The position numbers and the translations under genes were made by a program. 64,000 nt of DNA from NCBI GenBank assembly GCA_013368315.1, contig JAACJM010000192.1, positions 1-64,000 of the forward strand, read 5' to 3'. Within the stretch, counting starts at the first letter, position 1, and each line of letters starts with the position of its first letter. This DNA comes from Tetrapyrgos nigripes (taxonomy: Eukaryota; Basidiomycota; Agaricomycetes; Agaricales; Campanellaceae). A model generated the notes under the pieces. It had not been told where the DNA came from, did no database searches, and saw only the letters and a list, made by a program, of their open reading frames with translations. Positions 31,186 through 64,000 of the stretch are shown here, in pieces.

Positions 31186-31656
31186 AAAACCTTTTGTTTC
31201 CAAACTACCCCGTTCGCCAACTATGACCATTCATCCATTAAAACCATTCCTCGGCGAAGCATCTTCGTATTCCTTGATACGCGGGCTCACTCAAGCCTAT
31301 TGAAACTCGTATCATATGAATCAGCTGGCCAAAGCAGAAGGTTCAGCGATTTAGCGGTTGACTCGGAGAATTAGAATTCTTTGTATGGCTCACCATTCTA
31401 TGTCTCCAATATGCCGAACGGTGACGACTTCTTTCAAGTTAGTAGACTTACCAAGGAATAAGGCTTACTACGTCGTCTCAGACGAATCAGAGGTGGAACG
31501 GCTTCCGATCCTGATTCCTATCAAGTTTTCTTTTCTATCCATTATTCACTAATAGCATTATGAACTCAGACTCGGATTCGGAGTATAAAAGCTGGACACA
31601 TCCACTAGAATTTTACATCTTAGCCACAGACACTCGAAACTCCCTAAATCAACAAA

Positions 31657-32898
31657 ATGTCCAAAATGTCCACTCAGGCTCTCGACTTGCAAGGCAAAAT
31701 TGCTCTCGTTACCGGTGGCGGAACAGGAATGTGAGTACGGGCGTGGCTGAACCTCTAGGTACCTCTCGGTATCATTTCCTTTTCGCTGATAACCCCTCGC
31801 ATGCATGACAGAGGCCTAATGATCGCAAAGGAACTCTCCAAAAACGGAGCCAAGGTTTACATCACTGGAAGACGTCTGGAAGTTTTACAGAAGACTGCCG
31901 CCGAGACAGGACTTTTCCCGTAAGTCCTTTACCTATACTATGATTCCTTCCTTCGATGTAGAGACTTACATGTTGTACATTCCCCCAGATTACAGATGGA
32001 CGTTTCTGACAAACAGTCGATCGCCAATGGGGTGAAAGTCATCGATGAAGCTGAAGGGAAACTAGACATTCTAGTGAACAAGTAAGTACATAACTGAGTA
32101 TCGTGCGCTATCCCGGCCCCCATTCGAATTCATTCTATCCGTTAAACCGTCGATTCACTCATTGTCTTCATTGTCTTCACAGTGCAGGAATCGGAGGCTT
32201 CAGATCCGAGCTTTTTTTCGGTAAACCGGCGCCTGACGGCACCAAGATCGGAGAAGCACTCTTCGAACAAGACTCCTTCGAACAATGGACCGACGTTTTT
32301 AAAACCAACACTGCTGGTCCTTATTTCACTACTATGGGCTTTCTTTCTCTTCTTGAACGAGGAACACGTACAAGAGAGGGAGAAACGTCTAGTGTCATTA
32401 TTATCTCTAGTGTTGGTGGTACTATAAAGGTCACATCAGGGTTGGTAAGTCCTCAAGCAACCCTCAAAATATCGACTCTGATCCCCTTTCCTTTTTAGAT
32501 CGCCTATCCAGTCAGCAAAGCCGGCGTCAACCACCTCACTGGAATGCTCGCCACACAATTCGCACTGCAAAAGATTCCCATCCGTGTGAATTGCATCGCT
32601 CCTGGTATCTTCCCATCCGAACTCGCACGAGAGTTGGCTGATGTAGCTATGGAACCCATGCCTGGGTTCTTTAATCCAGCGCCTCCCCTCAGGCCAGGGA
32701 GGTGAGTCGATCCGGATCCGGATCCGAGGGTGTCCATACGATACGCAATAAGGATATCAATGACTGACTTTGCATCTGTGTCTTTACAGGCAATTGGAAA
32801 TAGGATCAGCAGCCGTTTTCTTGTCCTCCCTCGCTGGTGAATTTGTGAATGGGATAATTATGCCTGTGGATGGAGGGCTTTTGTTGGTTAATCCTTAA
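31657..32898 (+). CDS. Short-chain dehydrogenase/reductase (SDR), copy 1
   Basis: Six exons (31657-31730, 31812-31919, 31989-32081, 32183-32444, 32499-32701, 32790-32898) with GT..AG introns of 54-101 nt give 282 residues in frame, the usual length of a classical SDR. The Rossmann motif VTGGGTGIG, NNAGIGG, the catalytic Ser in IIISSVGG and the YPVSK (YxxxK) site are all present, followed by RVNCIAPG. The enzyme should be an NAD(P)H-dependent oxidoreductase; substrate is unknown. A TATAAAAG box lies at 31584-31591. Compared with copy 2 it has a 9-nt repeat at the start (ATGTCCAAAATGTCC), giving two possible start codons. Fungal RhlG-like or secondary-metabolite SDRs are possible relatives. Confidence 0.93.
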
Positions 32899-32978
32899 TT
32901 CTTCGAAATCGTACTAAGATGACGGGATTGTATGTAGCTATATGTACAAGTACCAAGTTAGTCGTATATTTGAAAAAC

Positions 32979-34164
32979 CGGTATAGGTAAATCTGCAGAC
33001 ACCCCGTGCAGACACCCTTCGGATAATGTTGTAAATTACTGTATAAGACTGTATGTACCATGCCATATATATATTTAAGCTTCCAGATGCTTTCCAAGTT
33101 GTGTATCTGCTGTACACGAAGTGTAAAAATCTTCAAAAAAGGAGTATAAGCACAGCCACAGATTTTTTCCTGATACATTCCTACAGATTTTCTCTATTCA
33201 GGATATCAGGGGAAGAGTTCTACATTCTCATGAGTGTATCTCAGTGTGAAATTGTACAGCAAGGACACTCAAAAGGTCTCACAGTGCCTTGAAATGCTTG
33301 CTGCCAGCATTTGCACTACTCATCTTTGAATATCAAACAATTGTTAGTATTTGGCTCATGTCTTAGCATGTTTCTACAAGATAATACATTGTAATAGCTT
33401 CAAGATAATTTGTACTCATTTGTAATTTCTGGGAAGGGTGTCTGCAGGGTGTCTGCAGGGTGTCTGCATGTGGCTGTGCATGTGCAGATACCCTGCGGAC
33501 ACCCTGCAGACACCCTACAGACACCCATGCAGACACCCTAAGAAAGCAAAATGGGAGTGTCAGATACAAGACTTCTGCCTAGAATTGGACATTAACGGAT
33601 TTGATTCAAAGATTAACTAGCAATAGCCAATTTCTGTAAAGAGACTATTTTCTCTGCCTGCGTGTTTTCTTATACTACTTTCCATCCTCTGTCTCTTCAC
33701 TTCTCTTTTCTGCATGACATCTGCGCTTAGACCCAGCTGAATGCTGTGGCTGGCGAGTTTCTGCTTGATTGGTAGTGATTTCTTCCTTTAGAAGCCCAGC
33801 TTCATGAACAGCCATGGTTGACCTGTTTAAGCCTTTCTCTTTGGTAAATGGCTTTGGTCTGGGTCTGGGAGGCCTATTCTTCTCCTTCTCTACTTGCTTT
33901 GCTGTTTCTTTTGCTTCCATCTTTTCCTGTATAGCCTTACAAAGGTCACTCTCCAAAAAAACTAGTCAGAAAAAAAAATTGTAATTCATATGTCCAAGCT
34001 TATGTACATGCACGAACAGCCATCATTCCTATTATTCATACTACATAGTAGAACTTAACAAAAACAATGATTTTAACAATGAATGAGTTAGTGGTGGTGA
34101 TAGGGATGTCTGCAGGGTGTCTGCAGGGTGTCTGCACTGGGTGTCTGCAGATTTCTCATACCCG
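32979..34164 (-). mobile_element. Non-autonomous MULE, element A (1,186 bp), TSD TTGAAAAAC
   Basis: A 9-bp target duplication TTGAAAAAC (32970-32978 and 34165-34173) is typical of Mutator. The other arm of the duplication shows the empty site at 49474-49482. Termini are inverted repeats (CGGTATAGGTAAATCTGCAG left; CGGGTATGAGAAATCTGCAG from the right). TGCAGACACCC/GGGTGTCTGCA repeats cluster at both ends and in an internal hairpin (33435-33540) around the core GTGGCTGTGCA. It keeps only the last exon of a transposase gene. Confidence 0.95.
33675..33970 (-). pseudogene. Last exon of a MULE transposase gene (remnant)
   Basis: The frame reads ESDLCKAIQEKMEAKETAKQ, then a PPRPRPKPFTKEKGL Pro/Lys-rich segment and a basic tail ending at 33675. 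It aligns with the final exon of the autonomous MULE at 58995-58672 (ESEFCKAEREKMEQK.., PPRPKPRPLTKEQ..). A 3' splice site TTTTTTTGGAG-type border precedes it. All upstream exons are missing, so no functional protein is expected. Confidence 0.8.
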
Positions 34165-34173
34165 TTGAAAAAC

Positions 34174-34578
34174 CCATGGACGATCAACAATAGGCATTCA
34201 ACAAGTTGGCAATCTCCAGTGAGAAGTCAGTGAATCTCCACCACGGGCCAGAGCGCCAGGTCTATGCATATGGAAACTTAACCGATATAAACTCTAGGAG
34301 AAATTAAGAATAATATTATAAGCTACAGAACGACTACAGAAAACCGACGAAACGACGCAAAAATCCGCCTTCGAACTCCAGGATCGTTCAAGGTCAACTC
34401 TTAAGATGCAGAACTTACCGGGTCAAAGTCAAAGCAAGCTGCGCCGTGTCGCAGAGGTACGACAAGGACCGGTTACGGGTATATACTTATACTTCAGTAC
34501 ATACATCTTGTCGCTGCTAGCTTCATTAGACTATATCCATGTACGTTGAGTTCAGTGAAGTGGATGCTATGGTATATA
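34174..34578. other. Intergenic part of the duplication
   Basis: No coding signal. The same sequence is present inverted at 49091-49473. Confidence 0.5.
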
Positions 34579-35022
34579 GTAATGTGCGGGCTTGGGCTCG
34601 AAGCCCTAGGCCGGCCCAAGCCCAGCCCTAAAAGCCCAAGCCCAGCCCGGCCTTTGAGGAGGGCCTGAGGGCCTGAGGGCTCGGGCCCGGGCTTTCAGCG
34701 ACACTTAGTGACCTGTTACTGACCAATAAAAATTGTCAATAAATAGTTGAAATTTCTTTTTGCAGACATTCTCACCAAGTTCTCACACAATTTTACAGTT
34801 GCTCGACGTCTAACCATCTTTCTGGGTCATCCCCAGCTGCTATCCACAACTTGTTGGCATCAATAATGTTGGGTTTGGGTCAGTAAATGCTTAATGTAGG
34901 TCAGTGGCTATCACACAAACTTAACTTCAGACTAATCCAACACTTCAATTGCGACTTTTTGAGCTATGACATCATCCTAGTCTGAGCCGGGGCTTCGAGC
35001 CCAAGCCCGGCCCGCACATCAC
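34579..35022. mobile_element. TA-flanked hairpin MITE, 444 bp
   Basis: TIRs GTAATGTGCGGGC and, from the right, GTGATGTGCGGGC, with TA on both sides (34577-34578 and 35023-35024). The ends are extended by GGGCTTGGGCTCGAAGCCC palindromes, so the single strand would fold strongly. The same insertion is in the other arm at 48603-49090, so it predates the duplication. Confidence 0.8.
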
Positions 35023-35370
35023 TAATGGTATAAAGCTAGGGCCCCGCACTGTCCAGTATAATACTGGTACGCCCGTATTTTTTACGGGTCCAGTACTGGT
35101 ACAGTGTACCCGTCCTCGTATTCGTAAACTGAAGGATTTTTTGTGTGCATCCATATCTCCGGTATGTCTTGTTTAGATCTATCTACGAGCCTAAATAATT
35201 ATACAGTTTAGATAACTCCAAAATTGTGCTGGCGGCGGCCTTCCAGCATCCATCAGGCGGGTCGCGGGTTTGGAGCGGGATGAATAAGCTAACCCGTCCC
35301 CGTCCCCGCCATACCCCGTATCCGCGACCCGTCACTTACCCGCCAACCCGTGCTATTCCCTACATATATT

Positions 35371-36234
35371 TCACCTTTCCCTGGTGGAGGTGCCTTCACA
35401 TGCCTTGTAATAATACTCATACTCCTCCACGGGGCCTGTGCCCAAGCAGGGCCGAGTCGGGTTTACTGAGGGCTCCAAAGTTCGACCTGGACTTCTAACA
35501 GCACCACGCCTGGCAAAGGCGAGCCCAAATCTAGGCCTTTGAGTCGAGCCGGGCCCGAACATCATTAGCTGATCCTCACGTTGAACAGCACCACGCCTGG
35601 CAAAGGCGAGCCCAAATCTAGGCCTTTGAGTCGAGCCGGGCCCGAACATCATTAGCTGATCCTCACGTTGAGACCGTTGAGGCTTCGGGTCTTTCTGGGC
35701 CGATTTCTGCTCTGCGAGATGAGACAGAATCACTGTTGCGATACGGTATGGTAAGTGTATGTGTTATTAGACTGCCAACGAATCGAACTTACTTTGGACG
35801 ATCTCCGGACTCGTATCCTCAGCGAATTCGACCTCATAGTCAAGATTGGCAACTTCCAAGTCTCTGACAGCAAAATGATCACAGTTCTGATAGAAGATGT
35901 CTGTCCAAAAGATGTCGAGCATCAGTAAACATTGCTTGGAAGATCACAATTACACTGCGCACCCTGGCGAGCTAGTAGGCTAGTATGAGTTTTAACTTTG
36001 TCGCCCTTTTTTAGCTTATTCACGAACTCCGCTGCTTCAGTGAAGAATCCGGTCTGGCGTGCTGTAAGAAGAGGCAAGTTGATGAACTCGTTCAGAAGCA
36101 TGCAGAGTCTAATTCTAACCTTTGGGCTTCATGTTTCCCATGGTTATCTTGGGGCCATTGACTCGCTTTACAGTGATGCTATCCGCGGCGAATGCGTAAC
36201 AGCCACTGAATCCAAATGCCTGTGTTTCGCTCAT
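35371..36234 (-). CDS. Spliced gene of unknown function
   Basis: From ATG at 36234 a product starting MSETQAFGFSGCYAFAADSI can be followed through probable exons. The best-supported junction is exon 3 to 4: donor CCAAA/GTAAGT at 35793 and acceptor CAACAG at 35733. Earlier junctions (GTTAGA, GTTAAA donors) are less certain. The last part contains QKSAQKDPKPQRSQREDQ and then a 29-residue tandem repeat (QREDQLMMFGPGSTQRPRFG..) made by the 87-bp DNA repeat below. I recognise no family. Its 3' part is duplicated, truncated, at 47925-48250. Confidence 0.5.
35497..35670. repeat. 87-bp tandem duplication
   Basis: Two exact head-to-tail units (35497-35583 and 35584-35670). The other arm of the inverted duplication has only one unit, so this arose after the duplication. 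87 is a multiple of three, so the open frame is kept. Confidence 0.95.
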
Positions 36235-47917: not shown

Positions 47918-47924
47918 AGGTCAA

Positions 47925-48250
47925 ATTCGCTGAGAATACGAATCTGGAGATCATCCAAAGTAAGTTAGATTTGTTGGCAGTCTAATAACACATACACTTA
48001 CCATACCGTATCGCAACAGTGATTCTGTCTCATCTCGCAGAGCAGAAATCGGCCCAGAAAGACCCGAAGCCTCAACGGTCTCAACGGGAGGATCAGCTAA
48101 TGATGTTCGGGCCCAGCTCGACTCAAAGGCCTAGACCTGGGCTCGCCTTTTCCAGGCACAGTGCCCAGGTTGAACTTTGGAGTCCTCAGTAAGCCCGACT
48201 CGGCCCCACTTGGGCACAGGCCCCATGGAGGAGGAGTATGAGTATTATTA
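47925..48250 (+). pseudogene. 5'-truncated copy of the unknown gene at 35371-36234
   Basis: It starts inside the exon corresponding to ..EFAEDTSPEIVQ and keeps the intron (GTAAGTTAG..CAACAG). It continues with ILSHLAEQKSAQKDPKPQRS and one copy of the QREDQ repeat. All upstream exons are missing because the duplication border cuts them off, so it is not expected to be expressed. Confidence 0.7.
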
Positions 48251-48602
48251 CAAGGCATGTGAAGGCGCCACCACCAGGGAAAGGTGAGATATATGTAGGG
48301 AATAGCACGGGTTGGTGGGTAAGTGACGGGTCATGGATACGGGGTATGGCGGGGACGGGGACAGGTTGGCTTATTCATCCTGCTCCAAACCCACGAACCG
48401 CCTGATGGATGCTGGAAGGTCGCTGCCAGCACAATTTTGGAGTAATCTAAACTGTATAATTATTTTAGGCTCATAGATAGATCTAAACAAGACATACCGG
48501 AGATATGTATGCACACAAAAAATCCTTCAGTTTACGAATACGAAGACGAGTACACTGTACCAGTCTTACTGGACAGTGCAGAGCCCTAGCTTTATACCAT
48601 TA

Positions 48603-49090
48603 ATGATGTGCGGGCCGGGCTTGGGCTCGAAACCCCAGCTCAGGCTTTGGGCCCTAGGATGATGTCATCGCTCAAAAAGTTGCAATCAAAGTGTTGGATT
48701 AGTCTGAAGTTAAGTTTGTGTGATAGACACTGACCTACATTAAGCATTTACTGACCCAAACCCAACATTATTGATGCCAACAAGTTGTGGATAGCAGCTG
48801 GGGATGACCCAGGAAGATGGTTAGACATCGAGCAACTGTAAAATTGTGTGAGAACTTGGTGAGAATGTCTGCAAAAAGAAATCTCAACTATTTATTGACA
48901 ATTTTTATTGGTCAGTAACAGGTCACTAAGTGTCGCTGAAAGCCCGGGCCTGAGCTTTGGGCCCAGGGCTTTCAGAAATCAAGCCCGAGCCCTCAGGCCT
49001 TCAGGCCCTCCTCAAAGGCCGGGCTGGGCTTGGGCTTTTAGGGCTGGGCTTGGGCCGGCCTAGGGCTTCGAGCCCAAGCCCGCACATTAC
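48603..49090. mobile_element. TA-flanked hairpin MITE, arm-2 copy
   Basis: Same element as 34579-35022 in the other arm, with TA flanks at 48601-48602 and 49091-49092 and GGGCTTCGAGCCCAAGCCC palindromes. A small rearrangement near 48940-48980 distinguishes it. Confidence 0.8.
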
Positions 49091-49557
49091 TATATACCAT
49101 AGCATCCACTTCACTGAACTCAACGTACATGGATATAGTCTAATGAAGCTAGCAGCGACAAGATGTATGTACTGAAGTATAAGTATTTTCCTGTAACCGG
49201 TCCTTGTCGTACCTCTGCGACACGGCGCAGCTTGCTTTGACTTTGACCCGGTAAGTTCTGCATCTTAAGAGTTGACCTTGAACGATCCTGGAGTTCGAAG
49301 GCGGATTTTTGCGTCGTTCTGTAGCTTATAATATTATTCTTAATTTCTCCTAGAGTTTATATCGGTTAAGTTTCCATATGCATAGACCTGGCGCTCTGGC
49401 CCGTGGCGGAGATTCACTGACTTCTCACTGGAGATTGCCAACTTGTTGAATGCTTATTGTTGATCGTCCATGGGTTTTTCAAATATACGACTAACTTGGT
49501 ACTTGTACATATAGCTACATACAATCCCGTCATGAGTCTTAGTACGATTTCGAAGAA

Positions 49558-50783
49558 TTAAGGATTAACCAACAAAAGCCCTCCATCCACAGGCATAACT
49601 ATCCCATTCACAAATTCACCAGCGAGGGAGGACAAGAAAACGGCTGCTGATCCTATTTCCAATTGCCTGTAAAGACACAGATGCAAAGTCAGTCATTGAT
49701 ATCCTTACTGCGTATTGTATGGACACCCTCGGATCCGGATCCGGATCGACTCACCTCCCTGGCCTGAGGGGAGGCGCTGGATTAAAGAACCCAGGCATGG
49801 GTTCCATAGCTACATCAACCAACTCTCGTGCGAGTTCGGATGGGAAGAGACCAGGAGCGATGCAATTCACACGGATGGGAATCTTTTGCAGTGCGAATTG
49901 TGTGGCGAGCATTCCAGTGAGGTGGTTGACGCCGGCTTTGCTGACTGAATAGGCGATCTGGAAAGGAAAGGGGATCAGAGTCAATATTTTTGAGGGTTGC
50001 TTGAGGACTTACCAACCCTGATGTGACCTTTATAGTACCACCAACACTAGAGATAATAATGACACTAGAGGTTTCTCCCTCTCTTGTACGTGCTCCTCGT
50101 TCAAGAAGAGAAAGAAAGCCCATAGTAGTGAAATAAGGACCAGTAGTGTTGGTTTTAAAAACGTCGGTCCATTGTTCGAAAGAGTCTTGTTCGAAGAGTG
50201 CTTCTCCGATCTTGGTGCCGTCAGGCGCCGGTTTACCGAAAAGAAGCTCGGATCTGAAGCCTCCGATTCCTGCACTGTGAAGACAATGAAGACAATGAGT
50301 GAGTCAACGGTTTAACGGATAGAATGAATTCGAATGGGGGCCGGGATAGCGCACGATACTCAGTTTTTTGTACTTACTTGTTCACTAGAATGTCTAGTTT
50401 CCCTTCAGCTTCATCGATGACTTTCACCCCATTGGCGATCGACTGTTTGTCAGAAACGTCCATCTGTAATCTGGGGGAATGTACAACATGTAAGTCTCTA
50501 CATCGAAGGAAGTAATCATAGTATAGGTAAAGAACTTACGGGAAAAGTCCTGTCTCGGCGGCAGTCTTCTGTAAAACTTCCAGACGTCTTCCAGTGATGT
50601 AAACCTTGGCTCCGTTTTTGGAGAGTTCCTTTGCGATCATTAGGCCTCTGTCATGCATGGGAGGGGTTATCAGCGAAAAGGAAATGATACCTAGAGGTTC
50701 AGCCACGGCCGTACTCACATTCCTGTTCCGCCACCGGTAACGAGAGCAATTTTGCCTTGCAAGTCGAGAGCCTGAGTGGACAT
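49558..50783 (-). CDS. Short-chain dehydrogenase/reductase (SDR), copy 2
   Basis: The same six-exon structure as copy 1 on the opposite strand; all donor and acceptor dinucleotides and the frame are intact, giving 279 residues. Motifs are GGGTGIG, NNAGIGG, IIISSVGG and the catalytic AYSVSKAG, where copy 1 has YPVSK. Other changes are conservative (APGIF to APGLF, RELADV to RELVDV). It lacks the 9-nt start duplication and retains the TATAAAAG box. Both paralogues look functional, so they may have the same or a diverging substrate. Confidence 0.93.
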
Positions 50784-51058
50784 TTTGTTGATACAGGGAG
50801 TTTCGAGTGTCTGTGGGTAAGATGTAAAATTCTAGTGGATGTGTCCAGCTTTTATACTCTGAATCCGAGTCTGAGTTCATAATGCTATTAGTGAATAATG
50901 GATAGAAAAGATAACTTGATAGGAATCAGGATCGGAAGCCGTTCCACCTCTGATTTGTCTGAGACGACGTAGTAAGCCTTGCTGCTTGGTAAGTCTACTA
51001 ACTTGAAAGGGGTCGTCACCATTCGGCATATTGGAGACATAGAATGGTGAGCCATACA

Positions 51059-52350
51059 ACATCAGCAAAATACCAGGGTTGGTCTATCCGCGTCTACTCC
51101 GGCTATCATCTATTTTTCCGCATCTATCTTCTTATCCCAATCCGTCTAATTCCGTCTATCTCTATGCCTGTGTCTATGCCACCGCTCCAAGACGTCTATT
51201 CCTTCTATTCACCTTGCCTGTATCTGAATGGTAGATTAACTACTTTAGGTGTCCAGTCAATATCTTAGCCTGTAAAGAGGACAGTCCGGATGCGATTGTT
51301 AACATTGTTGCTGAATATAAGTAGTGTAAGTCTGCATGGCACTGCTTGACGCGAAGTTGAGTATAGTACTGGACATGGGTAGAGTGAGGGTCAGGGTGTA
51401 CATACAGGGTGTACATAGAAGAGTCGAACAACTTGGCGTTGACTTGGCGCGGCCTGACTGTGGAAGTGAAATTTGATTTTTTCAGAATGGCGCGATTCTG
51501 GCAAAATGGCGTGGTCGTGTCGGCTACATGATCACGTTGACATGGTTGACTTTTCAATCAACCATGATGTCCTTCGTCTCTCAGCCCCGTTCTTCTCCTC
51601 CTAGTCCCCCAACAGACTTTAACTCTGCTTCAAGATGCTTCCCTATGTAATCCAGCATGTAGGACCCTCAAGCATCAACCCGTTAATCTTTGCCTCAACT
51701 CCCGCTGTCTTCAAAGCCCTCGCTTCCTCCCAATGTTTACTCTGGTCTATCTGGGATTCTGGATGAGAAGACTGGTCTTTTATGTACAGTGCATCTAAGG
51801 TGGCCAGATTGATTGATTTAACTACGGCCCTCAGTGAGTTTGTTTTTTTTGGTGCAGTCTCGTTCACATATGTACTCAACAATTATGTACAGGAACAGTT
51901 TGCACAACCCGGAGTGCGGCATATGGAGAGACTAATGAGGTACTTGGTGAGTCTCTTTCTCGCTCATGGCCACGAAAAGTGTTCAAGTAGTTTCCTCTAC
52001 ATCCAGGTAACTCGATGCTGGTAACAGCACCCCTTATATACTAAGTTCGTGCATTCGCTTTTCATGGTTTAGCACTCTTTCTAACAAGGACGTTTTCCAG
52101 ATCTGTCATGAGCATCATTGGTTGCCTGTATATTATACCATGATGTGAAACGGCGTTTTGATCGTTGGATAGAGTATATATATGTGTGTATAGACCAGTC
52201 TTTAGATATTAATAGAATGGTGTATATTAGGATAGAAGGTCATCTATCTGATAGCCGTGTACCTCTAGCCATAGAACACTTTCTATCCTTCTATTCCTTC
52301 TATTTGTCTAGCCATAGAAGGAATAGAAGGACCTGGTATTTTGCTGATGT
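51059..52350. mobile_element. TIR element F, 1.29 kb
   Basis: An inverted repeat ACATCAGCAAAATACCAGG bounds it on both sides. The interior contains TCTATTCCTTCTAT-type short repeats near both ends and a minus-strand open frame (51882-51643; ..HPESQIDQSKHWEEARALKT..) of unknown origin. It separates the SDR duplication from the P450 pseudogene and lies inside a P450 intron just after exon border GYFIPKG. No target duplication is evident. Confidence 0.65.
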
Positions 52351-53482: not shown

Positions 53483-53511
53483 CTGTGAAAGATACAGTCA
53501 AACTTCTACAA

Positions 53512-54920
53512 CGGTATAGGGAAATCTGCGGGTACCCCATGCGGGTCTGCGGGTGGGCTGCGGGTACCATTAAATATTTGAGTTCAGCATTATATGGCAT
53601 ACATACGAGCATTTGTAGCATAGTAGAGAGACATAAAAGTGAATATAGAGCTTGTAGATAGACTTCAACGAAGTGTAGTGAAACTCAAATGTACATGGAT
53701 AAGCACAGCCACTCACTCCCATCTGCAGTAGTCTCATTCCTAACTCGAGTATTTCTCTACAAAGCAGCCTAGATATTTTTGCCAAAAGCTTATTGCATGC
53801 ACTAGAGACTATTTCGATTCTCTGCATGCCAATATTCTATGAATTATGTACCCAAATTACCCTTAGACTTGAAATGAAGCCTGCATCAATAAAACTCTTC
53901 GTGGTTCGCAGTGTAAATGCAACATACTCATTCTAATACATCACTGAGTCAATGTTTCAAGTGTTCAATAAAGTAATTTGTTCATCCAATTCTAGAAAAG
54001 TCAAGATCAATGTGAATTCAGCCCAAGGTTTACTAGAATTTATGATAGAAATTTACTTCTACACATTGAGCATGTCAAGGTACTGGCTATTAGTACAGAA
54101 GCTACAGCATTCCTTGTTTTCAAACTGTTAGATGTTGTGTGGATGTTAGTAATGCTCACGAATGGTACCCGCATGGTACCCGCAGTGGCTGTGCACATGC
54201 GGGTACCCATGCGGGTACCATGCGGGTACCTATGCGGGTACTATGTTTCTTGCCTTGATGTTGTATGAGAGTCCGTTGAAGAGAATGAACGGCTATTTGC
54301 ACATACATACTACTGTCCTGGCATGAATGAAAGCTCAGTCTCTCTGACCAAAAAAAATCCAGAAGAAATCCAAAAAATAAATAAATAGAAAATGTCAAAT
54401 CTGGCCTTAGATTTTTTGGCTGTGATTTGTGACTGAACTGCCTTTCATGCTGGTACACTAACCTGCCTGCTAAAGTAGCATCAACAGCGGGCCGTATGAT
54501 GCTTTTACCAAGCCATTTCTACAAAAAGAATATTCTATGCAACTAAGGCTATGTAACGTTGGATACTCATACTTACAAGCAGTCCCATTTGCAGAGAAGG
54601 GCAAAAGTAAGTGCAGAGTGGGTCAGAAAGTGTCAATGATAGGTGATGCTGAGTCTTGCATATACCACGTAAATCCCATCATTTTTGTATGAATGATTTT
54701 ACCTCAATACCGACAGCGTGTTCTGTTCTTTGTGAAATTTCTACACAACAGACTCTGCATTTTGAAAGGACTATCTACACAATAAAAAGAGCAATTAGAA
54801 GGCTTAATCAACTAAGATTCTACATGATAAGCAAAGGGTAATGGGTACCCGCATCACCCGCATCACCCGCATGTACCCGCTGTGTACCCGCATGGGGTAC
54901 CCGCAGATTTCTGATACCCG
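53512..54920. mobile_element. Non-autonomous MULE, element C (1,409 bp)
   Basis: Ends CGGTATAGGGAAATCTGCGG and, from the right, CGGGTATCAGAAATCTGCGG. ATGCGGGT/ACCCGCAT occurs ten times, at both ends and in an internal hairpin (54165-54245) around GTGGCTGTGCA. The left 9-bp flank is CTTCTACAA (53503-53511) but the right flank is CCCTGAGTG. The matching duplicate TTGTAGAAG stands beside element D instead, indicating an inversion. Its right 0.9 kb is identical, inverted, to element D apart from a 13-bp repeat unit. No transposase exon was found. Confidence 0.9.
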
Positions 54921-54929
54921 CCCTGAGTG

Positions 54930-55830
54930 TAAGGGCTATGAGCTGCGGTGGGGTCGATGATTCTGCAGAGAAATGGAGCCATGGCGAATCGATGGATGAA
55001 TATGGCTGCAATCTGAAGACAGTATTTTATAGAGTCGAAGAGCCCTCCAAGGATAAGCACACCAAGTACATAGGTAATACCGGAGGTACGTCTCATCCGA
55101 ACCTAGAACTGTTCTGTCCGTCAAGTCAAGTCATGACTCATCGAGATAGATAGGGTAGACTGTCTGCGATGTTGAAGCGCTCGACGAGTGCGCTCGGCTG
55201 ACGCCCACGCTGTACGACTATGCTGTACGACTTTGATAGGACTTCGATGCCGCAAGTGGAGTTGATTTTCAAATTCGCTGGATAGGAATAGCTATGGGAA
55301 GAGTGCTTTCGTGATTATCGATGGCGGCACTCAAGGTTTTGATTCGAAGACGAGGTGCACTGGGTATTTCTTACCTTAATAATTGGAACATCCCATCCAC
55401 GATCTCATCGGATTGTTGGTCTTCGACCCATGTCAAACCGTACCCGTAGCTTCTTCAGATTCTCTGGATAGGAATGGCCAAAGGGACAGCAGTTTTCATA
55501 AAACAATGGTCGTGAATTCACCGACATGAACGAAATTGATGAGCGCCAGACAAGCTCCAGAGCGCTAAAACCTGCGTTGTGGTGAGGATGTGCTTCATTT
55601 AATTTACCACAAATTATATTTCATGAGAAAATATCGTGTTATTGCTTTGCAGCATACAGTAAGTACTAAGTACTTAGCAGGAAAAGCAATCCCAAATCCG
55701 GCGGCTGCAAGTAAACTTGCGTAGACTATGAACATGGTGGTGCAGGAAGCAGCCTGAGAAACCGAAACAGCCATAATGTTACCTGCCGGTGGCGAATAAT
55801 GAAAGATAATGAAGGTGGCGCAAGGCATGT
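54930..55830 (-). pseudogene. Fragment of a membrane-protein gene, truncated by a MULE
   Basis: Two minus-strand stretches look like exons of a multi-pass membrane protein. One is ..GNIMAVSVSQAASCTTMFIV then YASLLAAAGFGIAFPA (about 55800-55680). The other is SGITYVLGVLILGGLFDSIK, then YCLQIAAIFIHRF, ending at the MULE border. Stops and unclear splice sites separate them. The hydrophobic pattern would fit a wax-synthase or UbiA-like enzyme, but the family is not established. The rest of the gene should lie beyond element E, outside the window. Confidence 0.35.
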
Positions 55831-56142
55831 AGCGCTCAACTAGCGCCCTTTGTCAAACTTCTCTAATTCAGAAATGGAACCCGTTATCTTCAGGATCAAT
55901 TGCTACTGAAGACAGTTGGAATGAAGCCACCTCTTACCATGGTTCTCGGGATGGCCAGCTTTGACACGTTGGTGTACTCCCCGAAGTAATCGGCTAAACT
56001 GGAAAAGAATTCATTTGGTCCAATAAAGAAATATTGCTCACTGCATGAGCGAGTTGGTACCTGAAGAGGAAGGATGAAGATATAAGATATTGCCCAGCCA
56101 TTATTGGTACAGCTGAGTCTTACGCCCATCTTTCTTCAACCT

Positions 56143-56624
56143 ATGTTGTCATACCTCTACTTAACGACTGCGCTGCTAGGGGGAACGGTGCTGGTACTTC
56201 TCTATGATGTCGTCATGAATTCAAAGCCTCGACACCCACCTTATGAATCCTCCTGGACCAAAAGGCGTATGGTACCTCGGACTGACCACCATTCCGATGA
56301 AGAAAGCGTGGCTCACGTATATAACCTGGGGCAAAAAATACGGTGTGTTCGACAGTGCTATCAGTATGATTGGTTCCGAAGTGATTCTATCATATGCTAT
56401 TGAAATCATCAGGAGATCTCATCCACTTCAGTCGCTTCGGAAAACACTACCTTATCATCAATTCTCTGGAGGCCGCCAGAGACATCCTTGATAAGCAATC
56501 CAAGCAGACGGGGGACCGAGCTCATACTCAGTTAGATAAAATGTGAGTCACATACAGTCAAAAGAATATTATCCATAGCATTCTCTAAACTCTTGAATTA
56601 GCTCTGGAATGGACGACTTCTTTG
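56143..56624 (+). pseudogene. Cytochrome P450 pseudogene, 5' part
   Basis: ATG 56143 opens a signal-anchor (MLSYLYLTTALLGGTVLVLL) and NSKPRHPPY. A one-base shift leads to NPPGPKGVWYLGLTTIPMKK and AWLTYITWGKKYG (exon to 56342). Then follow 56413-56542 (DLIHFSRFGKHYLIINSLEA, ARDILDKQSK) and 56602-56624 (SGMDDFF). The next intron starts GTAAGT at 56625 and is invaded by the MULE at 56660. Its acceptor and following exon (ALMPYSNKW) are found on the other strand at 53482. The gene is thus disrupted by a frameshift, a transposon and an inversion. Confidence 0.85.
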
Positions 56625-56659
56625 GTAAGTATCGGGAAATGATCGTCTCATTGTAGAAG

Positions 56660-57552
56660 CGGGTATCAGAAATCTGCGGGTACACAGCGGGTACATGCGG
56701 GTGATGCGGGTGATGCGGGTACCCATTACCCTTTGCTTATCATGTAGAATCTTAGTTGATTAAGCCTTCTAATTGCTCTTTTTATTGTGTAGATAGTCCT
56801 TTCAAAATGCAGAGTCTGTTGTGTAGAAATTTCACAAAGAACAGAACACGCTGTCGGTATTGAGGTAAAATCATTCATACAAAAATGATGGGATTTACGT
56901 GGTATATGCAAGACTCAGCATCACCTATCATTGACACTTTCTGACCCACTCTGCACTTACTTTTGCCCTTCTCTGCAAATGGGACTGCTTGTAAGTATGA
57001 GTATCCAACGTTACATAGCCTTAGTTGCATAGAATATTCTTTTTGTAGAAATGGCTTGGTAAAAGCATCATACGGCCCGCTGTTGATGCTACTTTAGCAG
57101 GCAGGTTAGTGTACCAGCATGAAAGGCAGTTCAGTCACAAATCACAGCCAAAAAATCTAAGGCCAGATTTGACATTTTCTATTTATTTATTTTTTGGATT
57201 TCTTCTGGATTTTTTTTGGTCAGAGAGACTGAGCTTTCATTCATGCCAGGACAGTAGTATGTATGTGCAAATAGCCGTTCATTCTCTTCAACGGACTCTC
57301 ATACAACATCAAGGCAAGAAACATAGTACCCGCATAGGTACCCGCATGGTACCCGCATGGGTACCCGCATGTGCACAGCCACTGCGGGTACCATGCGGGT
57401 ACCATTCGTGAGCATTACTAACATCCACACAACATCTAACAGTTTGAAAACAAGGAATGCTGTAGCTTCTGTACTAATAGCCAGTACCTTGACATGCTCA
57501 ATGTGTAGAAGTAAATTTCTATCATAAATTCTAGTAAACCTTGGGCTGAATT
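56660..57552. mobile_element. MULE element D, inverted copy of C, cut by element E
   Basis: It begins CGGGTATCAGAAATCTGCGG next to TTGTAGAAG (56651-56659), the reverse complement of the flank left of element C. It matches the reverse complement of 54920-54015 except for one missing 13-bp unit. Eight ATGCGGGT-type sites are present. It stops at 57552 where element E starts, so its other end should lie beyond E. Confidence 0.88.
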
Positions 57553-58204
57553 CGGTATAGGTAAATCTGCGGGTACCCCCTGCGGGGCTGCGGGTACGGC
57601 CCGGGTACCAGTAATCATTTGAGTTCACCAATGTATGACATACATACGAGCATTTGTAACATAGTAGAGAGGCGTAAAAGTGTACATAAAGCTTGTAAAT
57701 GGACTTCAACGAAGTGTAGTGAAACTCAAATGTACATGGATAAGCACAGCCACTTACTCCCATTCACATTAGAGTCTCATTGATAACTCAAGTATTTCTC
57801 CACAAAACAGCCTGGATATTATTGCTAAAAGCCTATTGCATGCAGTAGAGACTATTTTCATTCTTTGCATGCCAATATTCTATGAGTTATGTACCAAAAT
57901 TACCCTTAGACTCGAAATGAAGCCTGCACATGAATAAAACTCTTCATAATTCGCATTGTAAATGCAGTCTACTCATTCTAATACATCACTGAGCTAATGT
58001 TTCAAGTGTTTACTAAGGCAATTTGTAGATCCAATTCCTAGAAAAGTCGAGATCAATGTGAATTTAGCCTAAGATTTAGTAGAATTTATGATAGAAATTC
58101 ATTTCTACACATTGAATATGTCAAGGTACTGGCTATTAGTACAGGAGCTACAGCATTCCTTATTTTCAATCCATTAGAAGTGATTTAGATGTTGTGTGGA
58201 TGCT

Positions 58205-58320
58205 GGTAATGCACCCGCATGGTACCCGCAGTGGCTGTGCACATGCGGGTACCCATGCGGGCACCATGCGGGCACCATGCGGGTACCATGCGGGCACCTA
58301 TGCGGGTACCTAGCGGATAC
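58205..58320. promoter_or_regulatory. Array of GCM-type octamers in a hairpin
   Basis: ACCCGCAT occurs once and ATGCGGGT three times, with ATGCGGGC three more times, in opposed orientation around GTGGCTGTGCA. The octamer AT(G/A)CGGGT is the known DNA target of GCM-domain proteins. The array lies between the element terminus and the end of the transposase gene and may serve as transposase binding site, regulatory site or both. Confidence 0.7.
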
Positions 58321-58671
58321 TGTGTTTCTCGCCTTTATGTTGTATGAGAGTCCGTTGGAAGGAACTAATGGTATTTGCACATATATACTACTGTCCTGGC
58401 ATGAACGAAAGTTCAGTCTTTCTGACAAAAAAAAAATCCAAAAAAATCTGAAAAAAATAGAAAATGTCAAATCTGGCCTTAGCTTCTTTTGGCTGTGATG
58501 TGTGACTGAACTCTTATTCATGCTGAGACAGTAACCTGCCTGCTGTAGTAATATTCAGTATCATTCTCATGGATCTCATGATCAAAATTTCAGCAGGCTG
58601 ATAACAAGGACTCTGTATCTACATTTATGACTCTGAACTACTTAGTATGCCTCCCAGATCAGTATTCTAAA

Positions 58672-61600
58672 TTATTGTTTCCTTTGTTTCTTGGATTTTT
58701 TATTATTCTCTGTCTCCTCAGTCTCTTTTGTTTGATCTGCCACCCGCTTAGATCTACGCAACTGTGCATTCTCCTGGACTGTCTGCAATGTCTTAACTAC
58801 TTTCTCTTTAGCAAGGTCAGGCCTTTCAGCTGTAAGTCCAGCTTCTTGTAAAGCCTTTTTACTATGTTCTGCTGCTTGTTCCTTGGTCAATGGCCTTGGT
58901 TTTGGCCGTGGAGGTGCATGGTTCTGCTTCTCTGCCTCCTTCTCCCTTACCTTCTGCTCCATCTTCTCTCTTTCAGCTTTACAAAATTCACTCTCCTAAA
59001 CCACAGTTAGCAAGAACAATATTTAATAACGCCAAGATAATACTGCACCTCAAGGTCAGATTCTGTAGCAACACGCAGATCTGGATCATTTTTCTCTGGA
59101 CCATCATAAGGCCACCACAAATCCTCAGGAGGACCAACATCCAGGCCCCATTGTTCGCTTCCTGCCACACCAGCCTTCTGTGATCTATCAAACATGACTT
59201 TTTCCAGAATTTGGAGAGCCTCTCTATCAACATCTGCCTTCAATCTCTTCATTTTGCCATCCACAGTCTTCCCACTAAAATCAACCAATCGTTGCCATGC
59301 TTGGTGGAGAGCTGACTGCTCTCTCTCCAGCTCTGACAACCCTGCTTCAATACATCCCAAGAAAGTCTCACGGTGACAGTGAGCCAAAAAGAGAGTTCGT
59401 GCATGTGCAATGCATAGTTCAAAGTCTTTAGGTGGGGCTGATAAAAATGACTGCACATTGATGTGGAGCCAGTTCAAAATGCGAGCCTGATCATCTGTTG
59501 TGATCCCACCAGTAAAGTATGCAGGACAAGGACGTCTAAACAGTGTAACTGCTGTCATGTATTGGTGGTTTCTAAAAATTGCATATCCAGGATTACCTTC
59601 ATTCAGGTACAAGGCAAGGGCTGGAACACTTGACACAGAAAGTGCAGAAAATTCAGAATTGATGGTATGATGCAAAATTTTTTGCAGCATAGCCTTGTGC
59701 TTGTACAGAGCGCGGTCTACTTCTGTGTTGTACTGATATACTTGCCAATCAGAGGCAATATCTGCTGGATCACGCTCCTCATGTGTTCGGATGAACCTGC
59801 CCAACTGTTTAAATAATCAGTATGAAAAAAGATCTTAAAGTACTAGATTTTTTATACCCTGATTGATCGCCGACCCTCACGATCACCATACAATCCATCA
59901 ACCAGCCTTTTCACAGAAATATTCTCCAAGACCTTGTTAGCGTTCTCATGCTTAATACCTCGCCACATTTTGATTGTCCATTTGCCTTTTTCCTGATGAA
60001 GAAGTCGGCCAGGATAATAAAACAATGTGTTGGCATCCATCTGAACCAAGACAGTGCGGCCAGCACTATCACAAATTAGTCAAATGGAAGAACTGACAAT
60101 GCAACACTACTTACTAGAGACGCTTAGCAACATTAGCCCGCAATTGAACACCTTGCTTCAGACTTTCTATGATTTGTGAGCTTGAAGTATCTAACATTGA
60201 TGCAGGATCACAGACATGGCATAGAAATTCCCCTTTGATTGTTGGTTCCATGCGGTTGACAAGGCAGGCCAAATGTGACCATCTGTGACATTTATCACAT
60301 TGGACAGTGACCTGTTTGATGAGCTCACGATGGCCATCATTCTCAACACCACATCGACAAAGAATGGGAAGGGGTGTTGAAGGTGGTGGGGAACTTGAGG
60401 GAATTGTCCGAAGAGGTGTAGTTGGAGATGGGCCTGGGGAAGGTGAGTAGGAGTGTGCTGGTTCAGGTTTAACCACTTGTCTGGAGTCAGAGTGGGTTTG
60501 TTGATACTCTGTGATAGAGATGTGTGGTTTCCAGTTCACTGTTTCCTCTCTGGTCATTTCTCTATATCCTGGCTTTGTCAGAGTGGTTGATCTGGTCCCA
60601 TCCAACTGCAGGTCCAGCTTCTGGAGGGCTATCTTCACACAATCTTCATGGAATTTTTCCTGTGCTACAATGCCACCTTTGAGGCTATAGACAGCACAGA
60701 CTGTTTGGTAACCATCAGGCTGGTATCCTGTTGTTCCAGCAAGTAAATCTCCAATCTTCCCTTTCACAAGCTGACTGTAACCCATATTCTCCATTCCATC
60801 ATATGAAAACACTGCTGATTGCCCACCTGTTGTTGGGATCAATGTAACACACCGAAAGTGTGCTTTGTTTGTGAACATGCGTGCCACAAGTTTGTATACC
60901 ACTCCATCTCTTGAACCTGAGGCTTTTGAGCCTGGGTATAGTTCACGAGGGAAATCCCAATCTGGTTGATTGCCTTTTTCATCCATACCTGGTCGGATGA
61001 TGAGTACAGATGGTATCCAGCTAATAAACTCCATTTTCTGGCACTGCCCATTGCAATAGATGTCTGGATCATTGGTGCCCTCCTTTGTGTGGCATCTCCA
61101 GCAACCCTGGATTTCCTGTGGAACCTCCATTGAGGATAGGTTGAAAATTGACTGGAACCAGTTCTCAATCTTCCCCCCAAACAGTTGGAGATATCTTGCT
61201 GCTGGCTCTTGCCAGGTGGAAGATGTGGTCCAAGGACTCTCAACTTGGTAATGGCCTTCACTGCAGCTTGAGAGCCTTTGTACTACAGGAAGAAAGAACT
61301 TAACAGCTTCTGGATTGACTGGTCCACCTCGTGGGCGAATGAGATAATATAGCCAATACTGTAAATAATCAGTTGCCATGCTTGATAAATTGCACTATCC
61401 TTGACTTACTAGTGCAGAATGATATTCATGTTCCTGTGTTCATAAGCAATCAATATCTCTGATTTGTACTGTGATCAGAGTAAAACTGAATTACCATAGC
61501 ATATGAGTTCTCTGCTATTGACAAGCAAAATGGAAGGCCTGCAAGGACATGTTTGAATGTATCACGTATGTTTTGAAGGATAACTGATTTTCCAGCTTTA

Positions 61601-64000
61601 GAGCCTGGAAAAGTGGAAAGAGGCCAAGCTCTGCGGTTGCTAAGGGTTTTGTGCAGGTGTGAAATTGGATAGGTTATGTCTGCAGCAAAACTTGAGAAGT
61701 CCTTCCAATGTCCATGACATGCCAAAGTCACATAAATGATCTCCAATGATGCATCAAGCCAACAAGAGTTATTTGCCCATGGATAGCTAGCAAATTCCTT
61801 TGCAGCAGCAAGGTTAACTATTATGGATGTGAATGAATCAGTTGGTCTGGTTTTCCCTGGAGAAAGCTCTTTGTAGCGACCCTGAGTTAACTGCTTGTCA
61901 ACTATGTCTGGAGGAGAAGGTGATCCATCTTCTGATTCAGAGCTATTGGGGACTGTAATCTTGACTTGTTTTCGGGGCCGTTTCAGTGTAGACTGAGTGT
62001 CAGGAGCTCGACCTTCTCTGAGAGCAGATCGATCACGTTTTCGGGGAGATGGTTTGTGGCTATAACTCTGTCTTCTACGTCGAGGAATTTCTGTTAATGT
62101 TTCTGCCTCACAGCGCTCAAGCTGGTCCAGTTTACGCTGGCGTTGAGATCGACCATATCGAATGGGAAGTCCATCTGTCTCACAGATTAATCAAAGGTAA
62201 GTCCTTGAGACTGCAACTTACGAATGTATGAGTCATGCATTCTTTGAAAGTGTCGCATAACCTTGAGTAATCCATCAAAGCCTTGGATAATATCCTTGTT
62301 TTTGCCTGTCAAATAATATCAGTGAATTATAATTAATGTAAGTATAGAAATGACTGCAAACCTGCTATTTGGTATATGACAGAGTGAACAGATTCCTCTG
62401 CATTGGTTGTATCAGGAAGCTTTGAGGCAAGTTTGCTGTCCATTTTTTGTTGGCTATGAAAAATCATACTTGCATGTTCTGGAGCCAACCACCAATTCAG
62501 CCATGCCTCCAGCCCTGGCCATGTTTCCTTCATGATCTTCACAACTCTATCAAACACAGCAGAATTCTCAGCTATAACCATCTGTCTGCACAGTTCTTCA
62601 AACTCAGCTCTGCTGTCAGGTGGCACATGGTTACTGAGTCGAGCCACATGTGTTACAGATTTTTCAAAGTGATATCTGCATCCCTTGATCAGTGACTGAG
62701 CAGCATTCTCTAGTTCAGTGCGTGTCCGAGTGTTGTCCTCTTGGCGGATGAAATAGTCGGTGAATGCAGAGATAAATCCCAAGCGCTGAGCATCACTGAA
62801 ATCAACAACCTAATCAAAAAAATCAGCTTTTTTCAAAACCATAGAAAATCTAGTGCCCTCACAAGTGCAAACAACTCATCAGTAATTTTCTCATTATGTT
62901 CATGTGCAGCTTCAGCAATAGCCTCAATGACAGCAGTGAAATGCCAATGGTAATGCTGAGTTGTAACACCATTTGCATAGCTGAACATGGAGGGAACCCA
63001 TCTATCAATTACAGTATTGAATGTAGTAGTGGAAATCAACACAGCATTGGGATCTGCCCAATACTTGTGTGCACCATCAGTCAGCATGCCCTCTAATGGC
63101 AAAGGGCCTTCAACAAGCTCAGCTTTTGGCAAGAGTTGGTCCTGCATCCACTTTGAGTGAAATGATATGACACATTCAGGCTCCCTTCCTACAGTATTGA
63201 TTCTGATTTGGACTTCATCTTCATGTTGCTGGATCCAGGAGTGAAACTGGTTGATGAATGACCATCCAACTTCTGCTGTAGCTCCTTTTGTCATTTTTTT
63301 AGTTTCATAACGGTAGGTTTCAATGTTTGCAAATTTCTGTGCCAACTGTGGTGCTGGTGGAGTTGGACCATCTAGAGTCTCTCCTCCTTCATATGACTCC
63401 AAGTGCTTTTTGTGCATGTTGTTCCCGAGATGCTGCCGAGTGTCTTTAGCCTCCTGTGCAGTGAGATGTTTGGTGTATGGAATCCGAGGATGATTGTGGC
63501 AACCAGCATGGATGTAACGATAAAGCCGTGTGGTGATGTCATCTCCCACCTGTGCATATTCAATAAGAAAAGACATTGCTCCACAGTCAAAATGTTCCAG
63601 TGAGAACCCACATATACAGTACTCATTTAAGCACTGTGCTTCCAGAATCTTTTTCTCAATTTTTGGCCGAGTAATGACTTGACACTGAGGATTAGTGCAT
63701 CGTAAGACACCAAGACACTTCTTGTAGCTCTCCTTCCCCCCAGCTATTGTAGTAGCATGGATTGAACCCTTTTGATTTTTCTTTCCATTGTTTCCCTTGC
63801 AGTTCCGTGTAGCCCACTGAACAGCTAGCATTCCATGCTTCATGTATGTAGCATGATCAAGGTCAATGGCAAATTTTCCATTTGGCCATCCATTCCAGAA
63901 ACCCTGTTCCAAATTGTCAACAGTAGTAAATTGCACATTAACATCATGCCCATGTCGGCACTGTGGTTCAGGTTGAGGGTCCAGAGGAACAAAAGCAGTA
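58672..64000 (-). CDS. MULE transposase: GCM-type zinc domain, DDE, USP-like peptidase, PHD finger
   Basis: Nine exons (to 62863; 62809-62362; 62305-62222; 62174-61495; 61433-61410; 61358-60115; 60065-59858; 59804-59049; 58995-58672) keep one frame for 1,635 codons; the 5' end is outside the window. The N-terminal part has FWNGWPNGKF, KKCLGVLRCTNPQC and IHAGCHNHPR (WRKY-GCM1 zinc fold). The Mutator core has MLTDGAHKYW, VVDFSDAQRLGF, a CxxH (GCRYH) and TTNAEESVHS. Then come a basic linker, NNSCWLDASLEIIYV (USP Cys box) with CWRCH..CNGQC, HFRC and FSYDGMEN, and a PHD finger (CRCG..CDKC..H..C..CHVC). YYPGRLL..WTIKMWRG may be Tudor-like. No stop or frameshift is seen, so it is probably active. 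Domain names rest on motif recognition only. Confidence 0.88.

Follow-up and report, generated by a model that had tools for sequence, protein, structure and literature searches.

Mutator-like transposons whose transposase joins a GCM domain to a DDE catalytic region have been known since 2011 as MuDRF, a distant branch of MuDR with 9-bp target duplications which was described from rusts, Laccaria, Schizophyllum, Coprinopsis and Naegleria by authors who needed four rounds of PSI-BLAST (Cantu et al., 2011; PMC3164196). We have analyzed a window of 64,000 nucleotides (the whole stretch considered here, positions 1 to 64,000 of contig JAACJM010000192.1) from Tetrapyrgos nigripes, which contains part of an autonomous transposon, here called family A, resembling MuDRF in its GCM-bearing transposase, its 9-bp target duplication and its basidiomycete host, and probably also in its MuDR affiliation and a DDE catalytic region. 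MuDRF was described with one protein, to which the window element adds a PHD-finger frame, and the accessible MuDRF text is silent on terminal arrays, on family-specific words and on a match to ATGCGGGT; arrays may nevertheless exist there. In the open-access literature, PMC3164196 was the only paper found on GCM domains, transposons and fungi together, and no report was found on what the GCM domains of Mutator transposases bind. A second parallel is Galileo, which, like family A, has multiple short sites for a transposase domain in its repeated ends, their number being proposed to give specificity; unlike family A, it belongs to the P superfamily, uses a THAP and not a GCM domain, and its binding was shown by footprinting (PMC3688188). 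Regarding animal GCM proteins, mouse GCM1 (structure 1odh) resembles family A in its fold, several cysteines and histidines, a WAxRN strand and a target octamer equal to the family A unit; unlike these animal transcription factors, which regulate development, the GCM-bearing protein is here a transposase, and its sister families use other words. We consider it likely, at roughly three chances in four, that family A is a MuDRF-type Mutator-like transposon whose GCM domain binds arrays of a short word at the ends, the word evolving together with the transposase.

The idea was tested by comparison with sister families in the same genome, where the transposase has 109 matches with identities from 100 % down to 29 %. 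Six sister families were sampled by one 10-kb stretch each, of which four could be delimited on either side. The families are lettered A, C, D, E, I, H and J, letters that are unrelated to those of the elements C, D and E discussed below; besides A, in the window, they include C (L043, 63 % identical), D (L042, 56 %), E (L041, 45 %) and I (L045, 33 %), and perfect 9-bp duplications bound four of these five, family D being the exception. Each family repeats a word of its own, with 14 copies of TGCGGGT in A, 8 of TGCAGAC in C, 13 of TGCGGAC in D, 20 of CGTG[CT]C in E and 30 of TCAAGC in I. Every one of these counts exceeds all 60 shuffles; since the units were picked after viewing the sequences, they are descriptive, and more weight falls on the cross-family counts, none of which (0 of 20) rises above the shuffle maximum. 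The layout is the same throughout: the first 5' unit starts at base 16 (families A, C, D and E) or 15 (family I), the second follows 12-14 bases later, and further steps are mostly 9-12 bases, about one helical turn, while the 3' units lie within about 20-110 bases of the end in the five families. An additional cluster is found further inside, at 667-755 bases from the 3' end in A, 476-490 in C, 644-710 in D, mainly 251-339 in E and 515-968 in I. Families A, C and D even have the 5' outer bases CGGGTAT..GAAAT.TGC in common, and their array words differ. What is conserved among the families is the array layout and not the word, and the idea of a single GCM site common to the arrays of all families was rejected on the family-specific words and the off-diagonal counts.

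The transposase frame is read on the minus strand down from the window edge, with a GCM domain (frame residues about 30-172) and the start of the DDE region at 62833..63999, and a continuation at 62333..62809 where DFSDAQ and TTNAEESVH, recognized by eye, are candidates for the second D and the E of the DDE triad. Similar motifs occur in a few relatives; the conserved D, D and E motifs are apparent by eye, and the Pfam and NCBIfam MULE (Mutator-like element) profiles were without match. When the transposase module was compared with known structures, 1odh was the top match in two comparisons, with 132 residues aligned, so that at model level the predicted protein is shown to carry a GCM fold. 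The original prediction of a Mutator-like transposon with a GCM-type module in its transposase is supported by this result; the match to WRKY domains was clearly weaker (73-76 residues aligned, as against 132). Of the eight Cys/His zinc ligands of a GCM domain, mouse Cys76, Cys82, Cys116, Cys125, His152 and His154 pair with Cys95, Cys101, Cys130, Cys139, His168 and His170 of family A, and Cys106 and Cys128 lie close to, and out of register with, mouse Cys86 and Cys113. From the tryptophan of the recognition strand to the first zinc-site cysteine, family A has about 16 more residues than mouse GCM1. Of note, a database entry labels a relative from Dendrothele as a GCM-domain protein.

As to mechanism, the most likely role of the arrays is to bind the transposase, as had been proposed and as their layout supports. 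The N-terminal GCM domain would bind the short unit, repeated at roughly helical intervals at both ends and in the cluster inside the 3' end; several transposases would then be loaded on each end, leading to pairing of the ends and to cutting that leaves 9-bp duplications. Three points are inferred here: binding of the arrays by the GCM domain, end pairing driven by this binding, and movement of the window elements C and D by the family A transposase, short internally deleted copies retaining the arrays and presumably being mobilised in trans. The unit would co-evolve with the transposase, one word being used in all clusters of a family and the layout being kept. Several results weigh against this picture. 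At the profile level, Pfam GCM was unmatched, even at E 10, by the window protein and by 10 A1 members, and among relatives five of six GCM matches (14.4-19.2 bits) fell under the cut-off, which was reached by P0010 only. The sequence profile matches to 1odh were weak (E 1 and 0.19), an unrelated low-complexity match outranked 1odh in one profile search, and a first AlphaFold model of 388 residues was poor (pLDDT, the predicted local distance difference test, of 49.8) and matched nothing by structure comparison. Regarding the arrays, those of families H (TGCGTCT) and J (TCAAGCAACAG) were seen on the 5' side only, and of the 1.9-2.0 kb of sequence upstream of two further copies, that of L080 has an unclear cluster of CCATAC and that of L079 no attributable array. 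Finally, arrays might also arise through a host factor or by replication slippage. In addition, a Pfam scan of six single window frames gave neither GCM nor MULE, phmmer with the 388-residue frame against Protein Data Bank (PDB) sequences gave no relevant match, and PF03615 had no match in the whole genome, a result that is uninformative since 14 control genomes were equally matchless.

That the arrays are promoter or silencing elements, or products of slippage, and not transposase sites would fit the position of the internal cluster, which lies past the last frame identified and can form a hairpin, and the fact that copies differ in unit number. We nevertheless hold this to be improbable: in five families the spacing between the ends and the first unit is constant, one word runs through all the clusters of each family, and short copies devoid of genes retain them. 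The five families, in one genome and with the domain encoded beside its arrays, offer a natural series for following joint change of transposase and presumed site while mobility is kept.

The word of family A is TGCGGGT; where an A stands before it, as is often the case, the animal GCM octamer results. Animal GCM domains bind AT(G/A)CGGGT, and the consensus target is given as 5'-ATGCGGGT-3' in PMC8859918. The transposon and the animal factor had been proposed to have the same GCM specificity; as a general claim this is not supported, as ATGCGGGT is found 9 times in the family A element, and 0, 1, 0 and 0 times in families C, D, E and I (63, 56, 45 and 33 % identical). The match is therefore family-specific and not a shared general code, because the sister families keep the layout with other words. 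Within the window, ATGCGGGT is found 22 times on both strands, always inside 53539-58307, whereas 100 dinucleotide shuffles of the window averaged 1.01 and reached 5 at most; the earlier counts of 10, 8 and 4 for elements C, D and "E" were correct. In the genome (98.46 Mb, 587 contigs), the octamer occurs 1,992 times and its reversed control 1,547 times, and this excess of 445 compares with a family A estimate of 427 (31 C-type copies x 10 and 13 autonomous copies x 9), which assumes that uncounted family A copies are like the counted ones. Family A alone would thus yield roughly the whole genomic excess.

Whether the family A octamer means the same as the animal one can be weighed at the recognition strand, where W59-A-M-R62-N63 of the mouse protein pairs with W62-A-T-R65-N66 of family A in all three MAFFT modes. 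The Arg-Asn pair also occurs in proteins P0001-P0003, and the strand reads WATRG in families C and D, WACSN in E, WVTKQ in H and WAT-N in I and J. On very few comparisons, this likeness of family A to animal GCM is suggestive; against it, families E, I and J keep the asparagine and yet have other words. The chances are about even that the octamer is a full coincidence, the GCM domain of family A reading its array unlike animal GCM. Indeed, four of the five families have other words with GCM-bearing transposases, and of the mouse residues reported to touch phosphates (Arg62, Ser69, Lys73 and Lys74; PMC8859918), Ser69 and Lys73 are replaced in family A by Gly and Tyr. The probability that an 11-bp unit contains the exact octamer by chance is about 44/65,536 per family, or near 0.5 % over seven families, a post hoc figure that is higher if TGC was inherited and that is small but not decisive. 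Against coincidence, family A retains Arg62 and Lys74 as well as the neighboring Asn63, and the match is exact and occurs in a protein that truly bears a GCM domain. Alternatively, family A would share animal base recognition through the Arg-Asn of the strand, retained or convergent, and its Arg-Gly sisters would read TGCRGAC. The alignment of WATRN with WAMRN in all modes tried and the WATRG strands of the 63 % and 56 % families, with their words TGCAGAC and TGCGGAC, speak in its favor, but it rests on about five independent comparisons, and E (WACSN), I and J (WAT-N) hold Asn without Arg and have wholly different words; we deem it rather unlikely. Doubtful, too, is the fuller code in which Arg is on the strand and the next residue sets the second half of the word (Asn for GGGT, Gly for RGAC), so that family A and animal GCM would read one octamer by Arg-Asn and the families would have rewritten their arrays in step with the domain. 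If it were true that family A reads the animal octamer, this would bear on the origin of animal GCM specificity.

Element C (53512..54920, plus strand, 1,409 bp), delimited by comparison of 12 copies, is a non-autonomous relative of the autonomous element with an internal deletion. It has TGCGGGT units in a left terminal array (53527..53567), a hairpin-forming internal array (54165..54241) and a right terminal array (54845..54905). All 12 C-type copies with flanks have the ends CGGTATAGGG...GATACCCG and 10 octamers each, and the 9-bp target duplication is perfect in 10 of the 12, the exceptions being the window copy and L054. Counting the window's own copy, C has at least 32 relatives of nearly full length (31 at 94-100 % identity and one at 85 %), a lower bound as 40 of 138 candidates were scored, and one further relative is without 46 bases of an end. 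Element D, of 1.4 kb, is of the same kind in opposite orientation: its first part (56660..57552, minus strand) has a terminal array (56675..56722) and a hairpin-forming internal array (57326..57402), is interrupted at 57552 and resumes past the window to end at 66155. The interruption is the autonomous transposon itself, nested in D at 57553..64000 of the window (minus strand) and, once the contig was extended to 78000 to delimit it and the rest of D, reaching 57553-65643 in whole (8,091 bp), with a perfect 9-bp target duplication, GGCTGAATT, and frames on the minus strand. Its 3' terminal array is at 57568..57597 and its internal array at 58213..58309. The latter had been attributed to a separate element "E", wrongly, since it belongs to the 3' part of this autonomous transposon, which encodes the transposase frame running down from 64000. 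The predicted internal hairpin is strong in C (z -8.1) and D (z -6.6), equaled in 0 of 200 shuffles each, and weaker in "E" (z -2.8; 2 of 200). In the genome, 13 transposase copies are 99-100 % identical over 388 residues and 12 of them lack stops, so the family looks recently active.

The 9-bp flank of D (56651..56659) and the left flank of C (53503-53511, CTTCTACAA) are perfectly reverse-complementary, which suggests that the DNA between them was perhaps inverted by recombination; this is half supported, the mismatched second flank pair weakening it. The interval itself (54921-56650) is host-like, with a frame resembling, by eye, the start of a cytochrome P450. Within the autonomous element, a PHD-finger frame lies at 60114..61394 (minus strand), the finger at about 60210-60314 scoring 22 bits in Pfam (cut-off 24) and matching a PDB PHD finger at E 4.7e-5. 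At 61450-62190, the motif NNSCWLDASLEIIY looks by eye like a cysteine-protease active site; a protease there, guessed from NNSCWLDASL, was rejected as database searches gave no support. Past the window, from 66156 of the contig onward, D adjoins TAGCTTGACAG repeats that look like the end of family I (L045) with its array. Stretches rich in GGTACGG/CCGTACC, possibly the ends of another transposon family, occur at about 67200-68100 of the contig and at 460-560 of L079, and 9 CCATAC at 80-200 of L080, upstream of a copy of the transposase with 46 % identity to that of the window, are perhaps another family word. Elsewhere in the window, 31381-35834 and 47918-51059 form a large inverted duplication that extends over several kilobases, most of its pieces being 86-100 % complementary.
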